From an uncultured Clostridia bacterium (GTDB lineage: Bacteria; Bacillota; Clostridia; TANB77; CAG-508): DNA of 42,317 bases. The stretch spans positions 1 to 42,317 of the forward strand of contig CALXVH010000013.1 of NCBI GenBank assembly GCA_944391965.1, read 5' to 3'. Below are positions 864 to 8,356 of this stretch, piece by piece; position 1 is the first letter of the stretch, and the number at the start of each line of letters is the position of its first letter. Position numbers and translations under genes: made by a program. The notes beneath the pieces were generated by a model. It searched no databases, had not been told where the DNA came from, and was given only the letters and a program-made list of their open reading frames with translations.

Positions 864-1679
864 TTAATCCCTACCTAATATACATTCATCTTTAACTTTT
901 GGTGGAGGTCCAATAAATAGTTCATCTTCTGTCTTTATTATAATTCCATCTTCCTTTACATAAAAAACGATCCCATCATTATATCCAAATTCAGTTATGT
1001 GAGATAATTTCCTGTTATGAATAAAAGGTTCCATCGTTTCACCATGAGTAATTAAAAATACACATACATTTGTATCTTGACTTTTTGAATAGTTCTTTGA
1101 CCAATCTACTACATAATTTAATAGCTCTGTTATTTTCCTTCTTAAATCTGTTGGACCTTCTGCATCTTTATTGTATTGTTTCACCTCTTCTGAACTAGCA
1201 AGTTCTTTCCAAAATCCAGAATTCATTCCTCCATATCGTACTTTTAATTTCTGTATATAGCTTGGTGCCAAATCATATACATTCGGTTCTGCTAATTTGT
1301 CTCTTAATTCTTCTATAGTAAGTCCATTTGTTTTTTGCCTCGTATATATTTTGGGCTTTGAATAAAAATGAGATTTTGCCTCTTCTTCTGATAGCCCTTC
1401 TTGTTTTAGTTCTTCCATTATTTCTGCTTTGGTTAGTTTTTCAGTTTCGATAGCTCTTCTTCCAAATCTTTCGTCACTTAACCAATAAGTAGGTGAGGCA
1501 ATAATAAAAAATGTAGTATCTTTTAATTTATTGCCTACTATCCTATCTATTCTTTTTTTGGTCTTCTCTACTATTTCTCTTTTACCTTCTTCTGTGATAT
1601 GACCTATACTTAGGTCGCTTTTATCCCTAGAATTATTATATCTTCCATGCCTAGTTAATATTATATTTATATCTTTCAT
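864..1679 (-). CDS. Histidine phosphatase superfamily protein
   Basis: A 271-residue protein of the phosphoglycerate-mutase-like histidine phosphatase superfamily. The catalytic signature LTRHG is at the N-terminus (His11 the expected phospho-acceptor), and a second conserved histidine sits in LITHGE near residue 217. A long, charged helical insert lies between them, bigger than in simple SixA-type enzymes, so the substrate pocket may be unusual. It starts 8 bases after the stop of the 367-residue gene and ends one base before the ATP-grasp gene, so co-transcription is very likely. Family members hydrolyse phosphate from small molecules, proteins or phosphohistidine (SixA). I infer, without proof, that it opposes or processes the product of the split dikinase encoded around it. 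It could instead be a sugar or nucleotide phosphatase. Confidence 0.75.
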   Translation of the reverse strand: MKDINIILTRHGRYNNSRDKSDLSIGHITEEGKREIVEKTKKRIDRIVGNKLKDTTFFIIASPTYWLSDERFGRRAIETEKLTKAEIMEELKQEGLSEEEAKSHFYSKPKIYTRQKTNGLTIEELRDKLAEPNVYDLAPSYIQKLKVRYGGMNSGFWKELASSEEVKQYNKDAEGPTDLRRKITELLNYVVDWSKNYSKSQDTNVCVFLITHGETMEPFIHNRKLSHITEFGYNDGIVFYVKEDGIIIKTEDELFIGPPPKVKDECILGRD

Positions 1680-1687
1680 TTTATCAC

Positions 1688-2791
1688 CTACAAATCTTCT
1701 AAAGAAAAGTCAGTAAAATCTGGTGTCATAACTATTGCTTTTAAATCTGTTGGTAAATACCACACTAAGTAATAGAACATTCCAGCTTGTCCAACTGAAC
1801 GAATAGACATATTTGGATTTGACTGTCTAAGTATTTCTCGTATCTCATCATGAATTCCAAACCAAAATGGTAGTAACTTTCCATCTACTGCACCCATAAC
1901 ATCTTTATACATCGCAAAATTTTTAGCTTGTTCATATGACATCTTCAATAACTCATATTCATCAGCAGATAATTCCTTCTTAGCTTGCTCTAAAATATCA
2001 TCTATCTTTTTATGCATGCTATCATACTTTTCTTGTAATTGTAAATTTTCTTTTCTAAATTCTATGGTATGTGTCAAAATATTGTATAAAGGAAGCATTG
2101 AACTTCTAAATTTAACTTGATAAATTGCATGACGTAGTTTTTGTCCTATTATTTCGTTATTTTCTATAACCTTCCAAATATTTTTCCAAATACTATTTAT
2201 TTGCTCTACATTTTTCATCGGATCTTCGTCTATTAATTTAGTTACCCTTTCTAACTCTCCTTGTATCTCTTTTATATTTCTTAGTTCTTTTAACGCTGCA
2301 TTACAATCTAATGCTTGCTCTAAATATTCATCTGCATAATCTGATTGCAATAGAGTTTGAATTATCTCTTCTACTTTTGCTTCATATTTTTCTGTTTCAT
2401 CGGCTTTTACAGCCTTCCTAATTAATAACCTTAAATTATCAACATAAAAACTATGTATAGGACCATCTGCAAATAAATAATTTACTATCCAAAACCTAAA
2501 ACAAAATAATTTATTTAATCTTTGGTCCATTCTTACCATATACTCTAAATCTTTTTCTTTATGAGCATCATATTCCTTTTTTAGGTTATCAAGACCTACA
2601 ACTAATTCAGCCTTTTGTGCATCACCATATTCTCTAAAGCCAACTGGATCCATTGCATATTTTTTCGCAGCTTCTTCATATTTTTCTTTTATTAATGGAA
2701 ATTTATTCGGATATGTAAAAATCATTCCTTCTATATCATTTGGTAAATATGTTGGCATTTTTAACAAATATTCTGGTATTTTAATATTCAT
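1688..2791 (-). CDS. Unknown helical protein of the split-dikinase operon
   Basis: A 367-residue protein I do not recognise as a named family. It has no signal peptide or membrane segment. It is almost wholly charged and helical, with coiled-coil-like stretches around residues 120-200 and 235-285, and a more aromatic C-terminal part. That C-terminal part (about 275-330, with SYEQAKNFAMYKDVM and FGIHDEIREIL) resembles, by eye only, the helical segment that precedes the swivelling domain in PEP-synthase-like and rifampicin-phosphotransferase-like enzymes. Its start overlaps the end of the GHKL-swivel gene by 11 bases, with a GGAGGAGAAGG ribosome site inside that gene, so the two are probably translationally coupled. 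I infer it supplies the substrate-binding or linker part of a split enzyme. That needs a profile search. Confidence 0.5.
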   Translation of the reverse strand: MNIKIPEYLLKMPTYLPNDIEGMIFTYPNKFPLIKEKYEEAAKKYAMDPVGFREYGDAQKAELVVGLDNLKKEYDAHKEKDLEYMVRMDQRLNKLFCFRFWIVNYLFADGPIHSFYVDNLRLLIRKAVKADETEKYEAKVEEIIQTLLQSDYADEYLEQALDCNAALKELRNIKEIQGELERVTKLIDEDPMKNVEQINSIWKNIWKVIENNEIIGQKLRHAIYQVKFRSSMLPLYNILTHTIEFRKENLQLQEKYDSMHKKIDDILEQAKKELSADEYELLKMSYEQAKNFAMYKDVMGAVDGKLLPFWFGIHDEIREILRQSNPNMSIRSVGQAGMFYYLVWYLPTDLKAIVMTPDFTDFSLEDL

Positions 2792-4034
2792 ATACTACAC
2801 CTTCTCCTCCGTCGATTATTACTTTTTGCCCATCTTGTAAGACACTAGTTGCTATATTTGTTCCAACTACTGCAGGTATTCCAAATTCTCTAGATACTAT
2901 TGCAGCATGACAAAGAGTTCCTCCTAAATCTGTAATTATTCCCCCAGCTCGTCTTATTGCAATTAAATACTGTGGTCTTGTCATTGCTGTAACTATAATA
3001 TCCCCTTTATTTACCTTCTTAATTTCTTGTTCCATATTTCCACTATGAAACATATTTACCTGTCTTACTGTTCCTATAACCTTTCCTTTGCTTGCTGGAT
3101 ATCCAGTTAACAATCTTTTAGGTTTATATTCATATTCCTTAAAATACTCCATTAATCTTTCTTCTACTTGTTTATATTCATCAGAAGTCTTAACCCAGCC
3201 TTTTTTATCATGTGTTATATCTACTCCTGATATTTCTAGTTCTCCAATAATTTGTTTTATCTCCTGATTATTTGTAAGACCAATTTTATCAAAAACAGTA
3301 ACTAATCTTCCTCTTCTAAATGTATTAAACCCATAATAGCTCTTGTTATATCCTGCTAATTGATATGCCCACCAGCCTTTAATCTCACATTTACCAACTT
3401 TAATATTTATATTCTTTTTAGTCCCTTCTATTATATCTGGTTTAGGAACTACACATTTTTCATCATTAAAATATAAATAAATCTCATCATTTAAAATAAA
3501 TGGTGCAAATCTTCTTCCTAATTCTTCTTTTATTTTTTGTAATAATTCAGCTGTTAAATCAATCTTTAATTTTTTAACTTCTACCACTGTTCCATGTGAT
3601 TTATCATTTTTGCCTTCAATTATAAATGGAAATTTAAACCAATCGCCCTTTTGCAACCATTCATTTTCATCATATTTAATTATATATTCTTCGTTTGAAT
3701 CTTCCATTTTAGTCCTTAAAACAAATTCTTCACCTAAAAAAGATGTTGCTGTTTTTAATCCTAACCCAAATTCGCCAAGCTTTTCTTTTTTGCTTGAGTA
3801 TCCTAACCTTATAGAATCTTTTGCTTGCGATTTATTCATTCCTTTACCAGTATCTTCTATAATAATTTGTTCTTTATTAATTGTAACTTTTATTGTTAAT
3901 TTTTCATTTTCTAATCTAGCATCTATAGAATTGTCTATTAATTCTGATATTGCTTCCTGTACAGAATATCCAGTTTGGCTTATCTTACACATTATGCTCC
4001 TATGTGGTGTGATATTAATAAACTCTTTTACCAT
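2781..4034 (-). CDS. GHKL (MORC/HATPase_c_3-like) ATPase fused to PEP-utilizer swivelling His domain
   Basis: A 417-residue two-part protein. Residues about 1-300 form a Bergerat-fold ATPase: the N-box has ISELIDNSIDA, the G1 motif is EDTGKGM, the lid/G2 motif is GEFGLGLKTA, and a GTVVEV strand follows. This layout fits MutL/MORC/Hsp90-type GHKL proteins rather than histidine kinases, because there is no HisKA dimerisation helix. Residues about 308-417 are a PEP-utilizer mobile domain, starting with LTGYPASKGKVIG and containing GGTLCHAAIVSREFGIP, with His376 as the expected phosphocarrier. In PEP synthase and PPDK that His is phosphorylated by the ATP-grasp domain; here that domain is in a separate gene at 152-862. 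The ATG follows GGAGGG by six bases. It is the first gene of the operon, divergent from an AraC regulator. The domain calls are firm; the combined function is unknown. Confidence 0.85.
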   Translation of the reverse strand: MVKEFINITPHRSIMCKISQTGYSVQEAISELIDNSIDARLENEKLTIKVTINKEQIIIEDTGKGMNKSQAKDSIRLGYSSKKEKLGEFGLGLKTATSFLGEEFVLRTKMEDSNEEYIIKYDENEWLQKGDWFKFPFIIEGKNDKSHGTVVEVKKLKIDLTAELLQKIKEELGRRFAPFILNDEIYLYFNDEKCVVPKPDIIEGTKKNINIKVGKCEIKGWWAYQLAGYNKSYYGFNTFRRGRLVTVFDKIGLTNNQEIKQIIGELEISGVDITHDKKGWVKTSDEYKQVEERLMEYFKEYEYKPKRLLTGYPASKGKVIGTVRQVNMFHSGNMEQEIKKVNKGDIIVTAMTRPQYLIAIRRAGGIITDLGGTLCHAAIVSREFGIPAVVGTNIATSVLQDGQKVIIDGGEGVVYEY

Positions 4035-4061: not shown

Positions 4062-4142
4062 ATTTTTTCTAACCTAATAATTGACATTTTAGGTACCAAA
4101 AAAGTCTGTTTTATGTTAAAATATTTCTTAATTGGAGGAATT

Positions 4143-4961
4143 ATGGATAATTTTGATAAATTTACTGAACTAATTAATTACATAGAAGCTAATTTAGATG
4201 CAGATATTGAACCTAAAAAGATGGCACAAATCTTATGTGTTAACGAATACACTATGTATCGAATTTTTACTTTTTTAACAGGAATGACATTAACAGAATA
4301 CATTAGAAAAAGACGTTTAAGTATGGCTGCCATTGAGCTTCAAAATTCTGATATAAAAATTATAGATTTAGCTATTAAATATGGGTATGAAAATTCAGAA
4401 AGTTTTTCTAGATCTTTTTATAAATTTCACGGAATTAAACCAAGCAAAGTAAAAAAAGAAGGAAAGTATATAAAAAACTTTCCTCCATACTCATTTGCAA
4501 ATATAAGAACTAATAAAGAATTACATTATAAAATAGAAGAACATGATGAAATTGAATTATATGGTATTCCTAGAAAGTGTTATATTCCAGATATTAAAAA
4601 AATTGCACCTGCTTTTTGGAAAGAACTTAGTAAAGATAAAACTTACGATAATATCTTAAATGAGTATACTTCATATGGTGTTATAGAATATGATGAATTT
4701 TTTCCAAATTCTATTAACGCAAATTATTACATTGCAAGTAAAGAACATATGCCACATAGCACAAAAATTATAATTCCAAGTTCTACATGGGCTGTTTTTA
4801 AAATAGATGAAATATCTGGTGATTATTTTAATAACTTTTCACATAACGCATATCGTAACTGGATTCCTTATTCTGGTTATAATATTAGAAATATTCCAGA
4901 ACTTGAAGTTTACCATGGGCCAGGTCATACAGAATGGTGGCTTCCTATAGAAACGAAATAG
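4143..4961 (+). CDS. AraC-family regulator with C-terminal effector-binding (GyrI-like) domain
   Basis: A 272-residue transcription factor. Residues about 1-105 hold the double helix-turn-helix of the AraC/XylS family: KKMAQILCVNEYTMYRIF is the first HTH, and IIDLAIKYGYENSESFSRSFYKFHG with the typical PSKVKK end is the second. Residues about 120-272 look like the AraC effector-binding/GyrI-like domain, with IPSSTWAVFKI and a Trp-rich end. The order HTH first, ligand domain second is that of the MarA/Rob-like effector subfamily. The start at 4143 is chosen because GGAGG lies four bases upstream; the frame is open further upstream without a ribosome site. It is divergent from the GHKL operon and may regulate it, but it could equally act elsewhere. 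The ligand cannot be read from the sequence. Confidence 0.85.
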   Translation: MDNFDKFTELINYIEANLDADIEPKKMAQILCVNEYTMYRIFTFLTGMTLTEYIRKRRLSMAAIELQNSDIKIIDLAIKYGYENSESFSRSFYKFHGIKPSKVKKEGKYIKNFPPYSFANIRTNKELHYKIEEHDEIELYGIPRKCYIPDIKKIAPAFWKELSKDKTYDNILNEYTSYGVIEYDEFFPNSINANYYIASKEHMPHSTKIIIPSSTWAVFKIDEISGDYFNNFSHNAYRNWIPYSGYNIRNIPELEVYHGPGHTEWWLPIETK

Positions 4962-4982
4962 CGACATATAGTCGATTTTTTT
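4962..4982. terminator. Weak bidirectional hairpin between araC-type gene and spoIIQ
   Basis: CGAC-ATATA-GTCG directly after the AraC stop is followed by A and seven T. The stem is short (four to five pairs), but it lies exactly between convergent genes and partly overlaps the spoIIQ stop. Confidence 0.35.
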
Positions 4983-5751
4983 AATATTTTATATATATTG
5001 TAGGATCAACTTGTACATTATCTTTTAATATTTCAAAATGTAGATGACTTTCATCAGCAACTTCAAAAGTAGCTGTATTTCCAACTGTTCCAATTGTCTG
5101 TCCTGTAGTTACCTTTTCTCCTTCTACTACAAACTCAGAAGTTAATAAATTAGAATATACTGTTTTATAACCATCATCATGTGCAATAATAACTGTTAAT
5201 CCATATCTTGGATCATTTTTTATTGATTCTACTGTACCTTCATATGCTGCTTTAACAACTGTAGTCTTTGCTGCTTTTATATCTATTCCTACATGAGTGG
5301 TCCACTCGTTTAGCGTATTAGAAAACACTAAATTATCTTTTGCAAATTCTTTTATAATTTCTCCTTCGACTGGCTTTTCAAATTTTATTTCTTTCTTTTC
5401 TTCTTTCTTTGTTGCCTGCTTTGATGTAGATGTAGTCGTATTTGTTGTTTTTGAAGTTGTATTTGTTTGTTTTTGTACAGTATTTGTATTTTGTGAATTC
5501 ACAAAATTTTCTGTATTTAAAGCAATTTTATTTTCCTTTACTTCATTTACTGTCTTGTCAGAACTAGTACTTGCCTCTTCTATAGAGTTACTTTCATCTA
5601 AATAATTAACACTACCTGCAAGTTGTTTTCCACCACTTTCTGGTTCTTCTTTTCCCAATGAAAATAATGATATTAAGGAAACACCAATTACTATTACCGC
5701 AATCACAATTGCAAAAATAACACCTTTGGATACTTTTCTATATTCTCTCAT
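4981..5751 (-). CDS. spoIIQ: SpoIIQ, forespore M23-family (LytM) engulfment protein
   Basis: A 256-residue protein with one N-terminal membrane helix (about residues 9-31), a Thr/Asn/Lys-rich linker (about 40-120), and a C-terminal peptidase M23 domain. The zinc-ligand pattern looks intact: HVGID gives the His and Asp, and HLHFEI the HxH. Clostridial SpoIIQ keeps a working zinc site, whereas the Bacillus protein has lost it. SpoIIQ sits in the forespore membrane and joins SpoIIIAH across the intermembrane space during engulfment. It lies directly downstream of spoIID, the neighbour seen in other Clostridia, which supports SpoIIQ over a vegetative M23 hydrolase. GGAGGAAA precedes the ATG. It is last in the 8356-4981 sporulation cluster. 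Confidence 0.85.
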   Translation of the reverse strand: MREYRKVSKGVIFAIVIAVIVIGVSLISLFSLGKEEPESGGKQLAGSVNYLDESNSIEEASTSSDKTVNEVKENKIALNTENFVNSQNTNTVQKQTNTTSKTTNTTTSTSKQATKKEEKKEIKFEKPVEGEIIKEFAKDNLVFSNTLNEWTTHVGIDIKAAKTTVVKAAYEGTVESIKNDPRYGLTVIIAHDDGYKTVYSNLLTSEFVVEGEKVTTGQTIGTVGNTATFEVADESHLHFEILKDNVQVDPTIYIKY

Positions 5752-5814
5752 AAAAATTTCCTCCTCGTTTTGTTTAATTAAAGTATTTCCTTATTTTATG
5801 AATTTATACAATTT

Positions 5815-6819
5815 TTACATATCTTTTATTTCCACTCCAATATAAAAATGATGGATTATATCTTCATAATTACTTCCACTACTTGCTAAACTATCTGCAC
5901 CAGTCTGACTCATCCCGATTCCGTGACCATATCCTTTTACAGTAAATTTAATATTATCACCTTCTATTGATACTTCAAAATTAGCAGACTTTAATCCAAA
6001 AATAGTTCTTACCTCAACTCCTGACAAATTTTTATTCCCAATTTTTATAGTTTTTACTCTACCACTTTCTGTATACTCTAGGATTCCTATACAAGCTGAA
6101 TCATTATAATCTATAGTAAAATCTTGATATTTTTCTAACATTTTATTTTTTAACTCTTCTTTAGAAATAGTTACCTCTGAGCTATATTGACTATAATTTT
6201 CCTCACCAGATGTTTCTACCACCTGCAAATATGGCATGCCACTGCCACCCCAAACATTTATAGGAATTTCGGTTTTTCCTCCACTATTTGAATGAAAGAA
6301 AGCATTAATTAGTTCATTATTATATGTTATTATTTTTCCCTGTGTAGCATTTACTGCATTAACAATTTTATTCCAATTTGATTCTCGTTCACTTTCTTCC
6401 CATCTTGCTAACCTATCTTCTTTCGAAATCCAAGCTTGACAACAAGCTGAATCATCACATATTTGTGCTTCCCCATGTTTAGTACTATTGTTTATTATTT
6501 TATAAAGCGTATAAGTTCTTGCCACAACAGCTTGAGCTTTTAACGCTTCTTCCTGAAAATTTGCTGGCATTTCTGCAGACACAACACCATATAAATATTC
6601 GTCTAATTTTAACTCTTCTATACTATTATCAGCAGTATGTAAAAGTTTAACTGTTTGATACTGTTTATAATCATAATTATTTTCTATAATACTTTGAGTA
6701 ACTACATTATTCATAACATTACCGTCTGCGGAAGTTTCTTTAATTCGTGAAGTACACACTATAGGTATAAGAAAAATAATAATTATTATTCCTACAAAAT
6801 AAAATATAAACTTTCTCAC
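5815..6819 (-). CDS. spoIID: Stage II sporulation protein D (SpoIID)
   Basis: A 334-residue membrane-anchored peptidoglycan lytic protein of the DMP engulfment complex. An N-terminal hydrophobic helix (about residues 3-22) is followed by the SpoIID/LytB domain, with the hallmark SAEMPANFQEEALKAQAVVARTY near residue 90 and a GHGIGMSQ-type motif near the end (about 295-305). The Glu in SAEMP matches the catalytic residue reported for SpoIID. The start is GTG at 6819, five bases after an AGGAGG ribosome site that overlaps the sigF stop. SpoIID degrades septal peptidoglycan as the mother cell membrane moves around the forespore. Confidence 0.93.
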   Translation of the reverse strand: MRKFIFYFVGIIIIIFLIPIVCTSRIKETSADGNVMNNVVTQSIIENNYDYKQYQTVKLLHTADNSIEELKLDEYLYGVVSAEMPANFQEEALKAQAVVARTYTLYKIINNSTKHGEAQICDDSACCQAWISKEDRLARWEESERESNWNKIVNAVNATQGKIITYNNELINAFFHSNSGGKTEIPINVWGGSGMPYLQVVETSGEENYSQYSSEVTISKEELKNKMLEKYQDFTIDYNDSACIGILEYTESGRVKTIKIGNKNLSGVEVRTIFGLKSANFEVSIEGDNIKFTVKGYGHGIGMSQTGADSLASSGSNYEDIIHHFYIGVEIKDM

Positions 6820-6827
6820 TCTTCCTC

Positions 6828-7538
6828 CTATGATATTAACTCTATTTTCATTTTATTTAATATCTTTTTCTCTATTCTAGAAACCTGTACTTGTGAAATA
6901 TTTAACATTTCTGCTACTTGTGATTGAGTCTTTCCATTAAAATACCTTAGCATAATAATTTGCCTATCTCTGCTATCCATTTTATTTAGCAATTCTTTTA
7001 TAAAAATTCTATTTATCATCGTATCTGTTTCGTCTTTTTCTGAAGATACTTTATCTATTAATGCTAATTTATTATTTTCTGAATCTTCTTCATATATTGA
7101 ATCTACCTGTTTCATAGAATCAATCGCAAGAACAATATCTTCCTTTTCTACTTTTAATTCTTTTGCAATCTCTTCTACTGTTACATTTTTCCCTTCCTTT
7201 ATTGCTTTATTTTCTATATCTTTAATTTTTACACACAATTCTTTAATACTTCTGCTAACTTTTATTATTCCATCATCTCTTATAAATTTTTTTATCTCTC
7301 CTATAATATAGGTTACAGCATATGTAGATAATTTCACTTCATATTCTGGATTAAAATTTTTAATTGCTTTTATTAAACCTATATTTCCTATTTGGAATAA
7401 ATCTTCATTTTCATATCCTCTTCCTTTAAATCTTTTTACAATACTCCATACTAAGCCACTATTATTTTCTACAATTTTACCTAGCTCCTCTTTGTCTGTT
7501 TGAGCTTTTAAAATCTCACTAATAGTATTTTCATACAT
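6828..7538 (-). CDS. sigF: RNA polymerase sigma-F factor
   Basis: A 236-residue sigma-70-family factor: region 2 with [16 protein letters not shown] and the [15 protein letters not shown] recognition segment, region 3, and region 4 with a C-terminal [17 protein letters not shown] helix-turn-helix. The order after spoIIAA and spoIIAB identifies it as SigF rather than SigG or SigE. I start it at the ATG at 7538 (MYENTI) because an AGAGGAG site precedes it. A start ten codons upstream has no better signal and would overlap spoIIAB much more. It overlaps the spoIIAB stop by eight bases, which suggests coupled translation. SigF drives the first forespore-specific transcription. Confidence 0.95.
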
Positions 7539-8007
7539 AAAAATTCTCCTCTTGATTTTTCTCTTCATTTGTATTTTTATCAGCTATCTTTTTTTCCATT
7601 GTTACCTTTGTTCCCATTCCTACAACCGATTCAACCTTTAGGTTGTCCATAAAATTATCCATTATAGTAAAGCCCATTCCTGACCTTTCTAGTTCTGGTT
7701 TTGTTGTATATAATGGTTGTTTTGCAATTTCTATATCTTCTATTCCTTTGCCTTGATCTGCAATTTCTATTCTTAATACATTGTCATAGATATATGCATT
7801 TATCCTAATTATTCCTTCTTTATTTTCATATCCGTGGATAATAGAATTTGTTACTGCTTCTGAAACAGCTGTTTTTATGTCAGATAATTCTTCTATTGTT
7901 GGGTCTAATTGTGCTGCAAAAGCTGCTACTGTAATACGTGCAAATGCTTCATTATTTGATTTACTTAATATTTCCAATTGCATTTTATTTTTGTACCTTT
8001 TATTCAT
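7531..8007 (-). CDS. spoIIAB: Anti-sigma-F factor and serine kinase SpoIIAB
   Basis: A 158-residue GHKL-fold protein that binds SigF and phosphorylates SpoIIAA. Motifs present are the N-box [14 protein letters not shown], the G1 motif ADQGKG, and the G2 lid with RSGMGFTIM. The C-terminal tail after about residue 143 is charged and slightly longer than usual. Its ribosome site (GGAGGAAAAA) overlaps the stop of the restored spoIIAA frame at 8017-8019, which supports that frame as the original end of spoIIAA. Confidence 0.95.
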
Positions 8008-8016
8008 TTTTTCCTC

Positions 8017-8356
8017 CTAACATACATTAAATTTCATATCTAAATCATCATATATGTGTATTAGTTTTAATATCCCACACATATCTAATACTTTTTTTAC
8101 ACTTTTCTTAACATTAATTAATGCTACTTCTCCACCGTAACATATTTACTATCTTATACCTTCCTAATAACAATCCTATTCCTGCACTATCCATGAAGCT
8201 AACACTATCAAAATTAAATATAACTTTTTTAGGCATATGTCTTTCAATTTCATAATCCATTTTCCTCCTTAAATCTTTTGTAGTATGATGGTCTATTTCT
8301 TCTTCCAGCGAAAAGAATAATAGCTTGTCCTGCTCTAAATATTTTATCTGCACCAC
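8017..8356 (-). CDS. spoIIAA: Anti-anti-sigma factor SpoIIAA, interrupted by a one-base frameshift
   Basis: A STAS-domain protein normally about 110 residues. The opening frame (8356-8114) gives only 80 residues and ends with a foreign tail after GIGLLLGRYKIVNM. One base later in frame, the missing C-terminus continues (YGGEVALINVKK, then a VLDMCGILKLI helix) down to a TAG at 8017-8019. Removing one T of the TT pair at 8139-8140 joins the halves into a normal SpoIIAA. Ser57 in FMDSAG is the expected site phosphorylated by SpoIIAB. The start is GTG at 8356 or 8353, the second having better spacing to GGAGG. Causes could be an assembly error, a true mutation, or a +1 shift at TTA-CGG, where CGG should be rare. 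Confidence 0.9.

Follow-up and report, generated by a model that had tools for sequence, protein, structure and literature searches.

Known swivel histidines are carriers inside metabolic and antibiotic-modifying enzymes, and we know of no earlier case of phosphohistidine control in the MORC-type ATPase family. The consensus around these histidines is T/SxxGGxxxH, which includes the PEP synthase Thr position, and the separation of ATP-grasp and swivel onto different chains has been proven to work in HpeHI, CreHI and PpsAB, the swivel His of HpeH being essential (PMC12167813). A C-terminal swivel also occurs in the ECTD of Bacillota pyruvate kinase, where replacement of its His by Ala caused no growth defect of the ECTD-deletion kind (PMC11834443). 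Prokaryotic MORC and paraMORC ATPases are characterized by an S5 domain with the motif GhXhhpXXRhl, and the majority of the known genes adjoin an SFII helicase, a nuclease or a methylase (PMC2292703). Removal of phosphate from a phospho-His carrier is exemplified by SixA, which dephosphorylates NPr (PMC7948535).

Here we analyzed a 42,317-nt stretch of DNA from an uncultured Clostridia bacterium (the window, in which all positions are given) that encodes a tight operon of four genes on one strand, with gene 1 first and genes 2-4 downstream. The features of gene 1 are as follows:

2781..4034, minus strand: gene 1, GHKL ATPase with S5 and PEP-utilizer swivel domains, 417 aa
3576..3968, minus strand: Bergerat-fold ATPase module, aa 23-153, by Pfam HATPase_c_3 and the ELIDN, DTGKG, GEFGLGLK and HGT motifs
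3132..3350, minus strand: MORC-type S5 domain, aa 229-301 (Pfam Morc6_S5, E 4.4e-9)
2799..3011, minus strand: phosphohistidine swivel domain, aa 342-412 (PF00391, E 2.1e-23)
2907..2909, minus strand: codon of His376, the predicted phospho-carrier, within TDLGGTLCHAAIVSR

Gene 1 is a single intact frame that starts with ATG and has no internal stops. An earlier note on this DNA had described a full Bergerat-fold ATPase with a swivel at its C-terminus, and both domains were recovered by Pfam. The HATPase_c_3 match covers aa 23-123 (E 1.7e-19) and all four motifs are present (E31..N35, D61TGKG65, G87EFGLGLK94, HGT149). The swivel scores 82 bits, where the cut-off is 23.1, and its signature, TDLGGTLCH, is an intact TxxGGxxxH, with H376, as numbered in the earlier note, lying in TDLGGTLCHAAI (aa 368-379). 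That note had missed the MORC-type S5 domain between ATPase and swivel, as well as the partner genes directly downstream. The S5 domain contains GFNTFRRGRLV (aa 235-245), which fits the MORC motif save for a Thr at one hydrophobic position. Among solved structures, human MORC3 and MORC2 are nearest to the GHKL module, and the alignment takes in the S5 region; nearest to the swivel are PEP synthase and RPH, with pyruvate kinase also among its relatives. The GHKL-S5 module belongs to the MORC type and not with the histidine kinases; the Pfam matches of the four operon proteins include neither a DHp/H-box domain nor a response-regulator partner. Pfam also found no PEP/pyruvate-binding TIM barrel in any of the four proteins, and no RPH-type substrate domain on the gene 1 protein.

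The three downstream genes are:

1688..2791, minus strand: gene 2, all-helical orphan, 367 aa, with an 11-bp overlap with gene 1
864..1679, minus strand: gene 3, histidine-phosphatase-superfamily-like (RHG) protein, 271 aa
152..862, minus strand: gene 4, stand-alone PPDK_N ATP-grasp, 236 aa (PF01326, E 6.2e-60)

Gene 2 is followed by gene 3 after 8 bp, and gene 3 by gene 4 after 1 bp. In alignment, the catalytic residues K19, R63, E217, Q229 and R231 of gene 4 are invariant in seven of seven copies, and its solved relatives are the ATP-grasp domains of PEP synthase and RPH. Both halves of a PEP-synthase/RPH-like phosphotransferase, ATP-grasp and swivel, are encoded in the operon, on two separate chains.

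Gene 3 is likely to be a member of the histidine phosphatase superfamily, as judged from its motifs and from structural models. R10 H11 G12, SP..R75 (SP..RAIET), E174 and the T H212 G motif are invariant in 6/6 copies, RHG stands at the end of strand 1, and the order of the motifs is that of the superfamily. The pattern, which was written on the gene 3 protein, matched none of 200,000 shuffles of that protein. By hhalign against a His_Phos_1 profile from the genus and order, the E..R..THG elements lined up in register (Prob 32%; E 4.7e-4, as calculated for one comparison); in Pfam, gene 3 was below detection for every model, His_Phos_1 included. The AlphaFold model is of low confidence (pLDDT 46), and with this model nearly all of the 50 matches listed by Foldseek (best E 0.013) and all 50 listed by VIA (best Z 7.2) belong to the superfamily or contain its domain. 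A search of 244 other genomes of the class yielded a single marginal, partial match to gene 3 (E 0.008), and none was obtained on plasmids or in viral contigs. In one copy (L010:5260-6073) gene 3 is read as two frames that overlap (5260-5688 and 5654-6073), which may reflect a frameshift or a sequencing error.

The gene 2 protein is all-helical in an AF2 model of low confidence (pLDDT 45-46, with six to seven close homologues used). No family for it was found in Pfam, the PDB or PADLOC, the model had no structure match, and no homologues beyond the operon were detected in 397 other genomes of the phylum, on plasmids or in viral contigs. The protein could be a substrate-binding subunit. The idea, suggested by eye from its C-terminus, that it is a split-off RPH-type substrate domain was rejected, as hhalign against RPH-like proteins gave a Prob of 0.3-0.9%.

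The 417-aa frame of gene 1 is common to seven separately assembled MAGs, at 85-98% identity, which rules out an assembly artefact and bears out the earlier statement, based on the continuous frame, that no assembly join is involved. None of the seven homologues deviates at His376 or in the ATPase motifs. The two observations that the earlier note had named as refutation, i.e., homologues with the His replaced and an architecture seen only once, were not encountered, and several genomes carry the fusion. Pairwise dN/dS in genes 1, 2, 3 and 4 was 0.05-0.07, 0.06-0.15, 0.12-0.24 and 0.15-0.38, respectively. All four genes are under purifying selection, which is strong on gene 1. Conservation within gene 1 is highest in the swivel, where 94% of the columns are invariant vs 73% in the GHKL part.

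Of 14 genomes of the genus, six carry the operon; the seventh copy lies in a diverged MAG (L011; gene 1 at 85% identity) among other flanking genes. The four genes co-occur in the same order in both settings. A search at E <= 1e-30 of 290 other genomes of the class detected no GHKL-swivel fusion elsewhere, and a profile search of 382 other genomes of the phylum detected no second one; the profile's matches outside the source genome all begin at query residue 239 at least, are centred on the swivel and lie in other PEP-utilizing enzymes. Nowhere in 72,556 plasmids and 50,697 phage records was 80% of the gene 1 protein covered. In viral contigs, a single-sequence query returned no relatives of gene 1 and an alignment-based search returned 27 GHKL-only relatives, none with a swivel, an ATP-grasp or a gene 2 or gene 3 homologue nearby. 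The single-sequence scan of genome contigs reaches close relatives only, and distant homologues outside the phylum may exist. Within the genomes searched, the GHKL-swivel architecture is limited to one genus and one diverged lineage. No paper describing the fusion was found in a literature search, in keeping with the earlier remark that it is not known from characterized enzymes; while the component families are known, no family covers the whole, and the GHKL-S5-swivel architecture is new to the literature searched.

PPDK_N frames in 196 genomes of the class are much longer than 240 aa, apart from a few of about 265-440 aa. Some of these few, and other short swivel frames, come from dikinases that are split over two genes and have no GHKL fusion (L151 and L153). 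In these two loci from other Bacillota (L151:5186-7802 and L153:4813-7314), PPDK_N and swivel lie on adjoining separate ORFs, and the gene pairs are apparently uncharacterized two-component dikinases.

Upstream of gene 1 lie two features of possible regulatory relevance:

4083..4106, no strand: imperfect palindrome GACTTTTTTGGT/ACCTAAAATGTC, candidate operator, 48 bp upstream of gene 1
4143..4961, plus strand: AraC-type regulator, divergent, with a Cass2/GyrI-like effector domain

All seven loci retain the palindrome, L011 with its different flanks among them, and it had no match in 100 shuffles. Because it is kept in two otherwise different settings, it is a candidate operator for a trans-acting regulator. 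The AraC-type gene is a possible regulator of the operon: its orthologues at >= 90% identity occur only in the same six genomes of the genus as the operon, and in L011 it is not adjacent to the operon. Sporulation-type genes adjoin the operon at 4981-8356 (an M23 peptidase and SpoIID), and beyond SpoIID a sigma factor, a SpoIIAB-like and a SpoIIAA-like gene were recognized by eye. At the other end, the contigs of all six genus copies (positions 1-151 of the window, and L006-L010) stop 128-382 bp past gene 4, just beyond TTGACA-17-TATAAT-like promoters, of which L008 has two in tandem. These look like rRNA-operon promoters; the operon probably lies immediately ahead of an rRNA operon at which the assemblies break off.

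The operon proteins matched no known anti-phage system in PADLOC-DB 2.0.0, in which the MzaB model gave only a weak match to the GHKL domain of gene 1 (E 1.5e-8). Distant prokaryotic relatives of this domain were found in several settings: L029 is an MZA-like locus, L028 is a restriction-like locus with methylase, helicase and Vsr, in L027 the relative has a PAPS-reductase-like gene next to it, and in L005, from Haladaptatus, it has helicases next to it; gene names in L027, L028 and L029 were assigned by eye, while L005 is annotated. In L027:992-4304 the GHKL ATPase is flanked by the PAPS-reductase-like gene on one side and on the other by a gene that resembles methyltransferases (tcmP-like by eye), and the locus is possibly a defence-type operon. 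The company kept by these relatives suggests a link of the module to defence or DNA handling, and a role of the operon itself in defence or DNA management is possible. The operon has no SFII helicase, nuclease or methylase neighbours; it adjoins the AraC regulator and the sporulation genes.

From domain content and precedent we infer all of the functional steps, i.e., phosphorylation and dephosphorylation of His376 and control of the ATPase. The reading that we prefer, to which we give slightly less than an even chance, is that the operon equips a MORC-type ATPase with a phosphohistidine switch or relay. The gene 4 protein would use ATP, releasing AMP and Pi, to phosphorylate His376 on the gene 1 swivel, which would shuttle between its ATP-grasp partner and either the GHKL-S5 module of its own chain or the helical protein of 367 aa encoded by gene 2. 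The phospho-state would set the ATP-driven clamp or dimer cycle of the MORC-like module, and the gene 3 RHG protein would strip the phosphoryl group from His376 or from the final acceptor, thereby resetting the switch. The most likely donor of the phosphate, on the pattern of HpeHI and PpsAB, is the partner ATP-grasp and not the GHKL ATPase, because an operon-encoded ATP-grasp of PEP-synthase type with conserved catalytic residues is the canonical donor to a swivel His; gene 3 probably removes the phosphate. The earlier note had proposed that conformational change of the ATPase is coupled to a phosphate carrier. Coupling is possible, but the ATP-grasp in the operon and the MORC-type module speak against the GHKL domain as the driver, and any coupling would more probably run from His phosphorylation to the ATPase than the reverse.

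A switch is supported by the invariant fusion and His376, the high conservation of the swivel and the intact ATP-grasp partner; by the lack of a TIM barrel or RPH-type substrate domain on the swivel chain, and of the latter in gene 2 by hhalign; by the phosphatase-like gene, for which SixA is a precedent on a phospho-His carrier (PMC7948535); by the likeness of the module to MORC3 and MORC2 and the MZA-, restriction- and helicase-type loci of its relatives; and by the co-occurrence of four genes in order in both settings under purifying selection. It is weakened by the inferential assignment of gene 3, which escapes Pfam and has low-confidence models, by the chance that gene 2 serves to bind a substrate, by the absence of the helicase, nuclease and methylase neighbours usual for MORC and paraMORC genes, and by a patchy distribution that could suit metabolism too.

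The main rival is a multi-subunit dikinase, in which gene 4 would charge His376 for transfer to a small molecule, a nucleotide or a macromolecule. The acceptor would be held by gene 2 and/or by GHKL-S5, as a substitute for the rifampin-binding domain in RPH, and gene 3 would act on the phosphorylated product. The characterized enzymes that combine swivel and ATP-grasp without a TIM barrel (RPH, HpeHI, CreHI and PpsAB) do phosphorylate substrates (PMC12167813), the divergent regulator bears a small-molecule-binding domain of the Cass2/GyrI-like type, and gene 2 is predicted, in a low-confidence model, to be helical as RPH substrate domains generally are. We nevertheless consider such an enzyme somewhat unlikely, given that hhalign detected no similarity between gene 2 and RPH-like substrate domains, that an ATPase and not a substrate domain precedes the swivel, that a phosphatase in the same operon could reverse product formation, and that the AraC regulator is not beside the operon in L011.

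There are two further explanations. That the swivel is a regulatory appendage, not phosphorylated and sensing a ligand or conformation, would follow the pyruvate kinase ECTD (PF00391), in which a change of the conserved His to Ala did not reproduce the growth defect of an ECTD deletion (PMC11834443); pyruvate kinase is also among the solved relatives of the domain. This is improbable in view of the stand-alone ATP-grasp with invariant catalytic residues in every operon copy, the intact TxxGGxxxH and the position of the swivel as the best-conserved part of gene 1. More improbable still is direct action of the GHKL ATPase on the swivel His, whether by phosphorylating it or by driving it mechanically, in the manner of a histidine kinase or an ATPase-coupled carrier. 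Histidine kinases do belong to the GHKL superfamily, and here ATPase and His share one chain; however, the module, with its S5 domain, is of MORC type, for which ATP hydrolysis but no His phosphorylation is known, and every copy of the operon encodes a dedicated ATP-grasp with an intact active site. Direct phosphorylation of His376 by the GHKL domain is the least likely of the routes.

Should the operon indeed act as a phosphohistidine switch, its dedicated kinase, carrier and phosphatase would provide the first case known to us of phosphohistidine control of a MORC-type ATPase. A tentative proposal, to which we give rather less than an even chance, is that it represents a new signalling module in which a MORC-type clamp cycle is switched by swivel-His phosphorylation, with an ATP-grasp kinase and a histidine-phosphatase of its own and possibly a function in defence or chromosome management. 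The operon bears on how prokaryotic MORCs are regulated, offering a small, testable system of four proteins in which a single residue, His376, is diagnostic, and it brings a candidate of non-catabolic type to the newly recognized two-component dikinases.

Compared with known systems, the operon resembles HpeHI, CreHI and PpsAB in having a separate PPDK_N ATP-grasp and a separate chain with a C-terminal swivel His, and no TIM barrel (PMC12167813). It differs from them in that a MORC-type GHKL-S5 module occupies the place of the helical substrate-binding domain on the swivel chain, in the addition of two genes, one for a helical orphan and one for a phosphatase-like RHG protein, and in its short ATP-grasp (236 aa, vs about 340 residues in HpeI). 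RPH and PEP synthase are the nearest solved structures to the gene 4 ATP-grasp and gene 1 swivel; unlike these enzymes, the Clostridia system consists of two chains, is fused to GHKL and lacks a TIM barrel or recognizable rifampin-binding domain, and gene 1 has Leu at position 374, the site of the regulatory Thr in PEP synthases. Gene 3 shares with SixA-type phosphohistidine phosphatases the RHG...SP..RA..T...E...HG order and fold matches to the superfamily, and differs in its 271 aa and in lacking a detectable Pfam His_Phos_1 match. As in Bacillota pyruvate kinase with its PF00391 ECTD, an otherwise unrelated enzyme bears a C-terminal swivel, whereas in the Clostridia operon a dedicated ATP-grasp partner is encoded. 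Finally, gene 1 has the GHKL and S5 domains, the intact ATP site and a near-complete S5 motif of prokaryotic MORC and paraMORC ATPases, MzaB included, and is set apart from them by its C-terminal swivel, a feature not encountered in the texts of PMC2292703 and PMC8011034.
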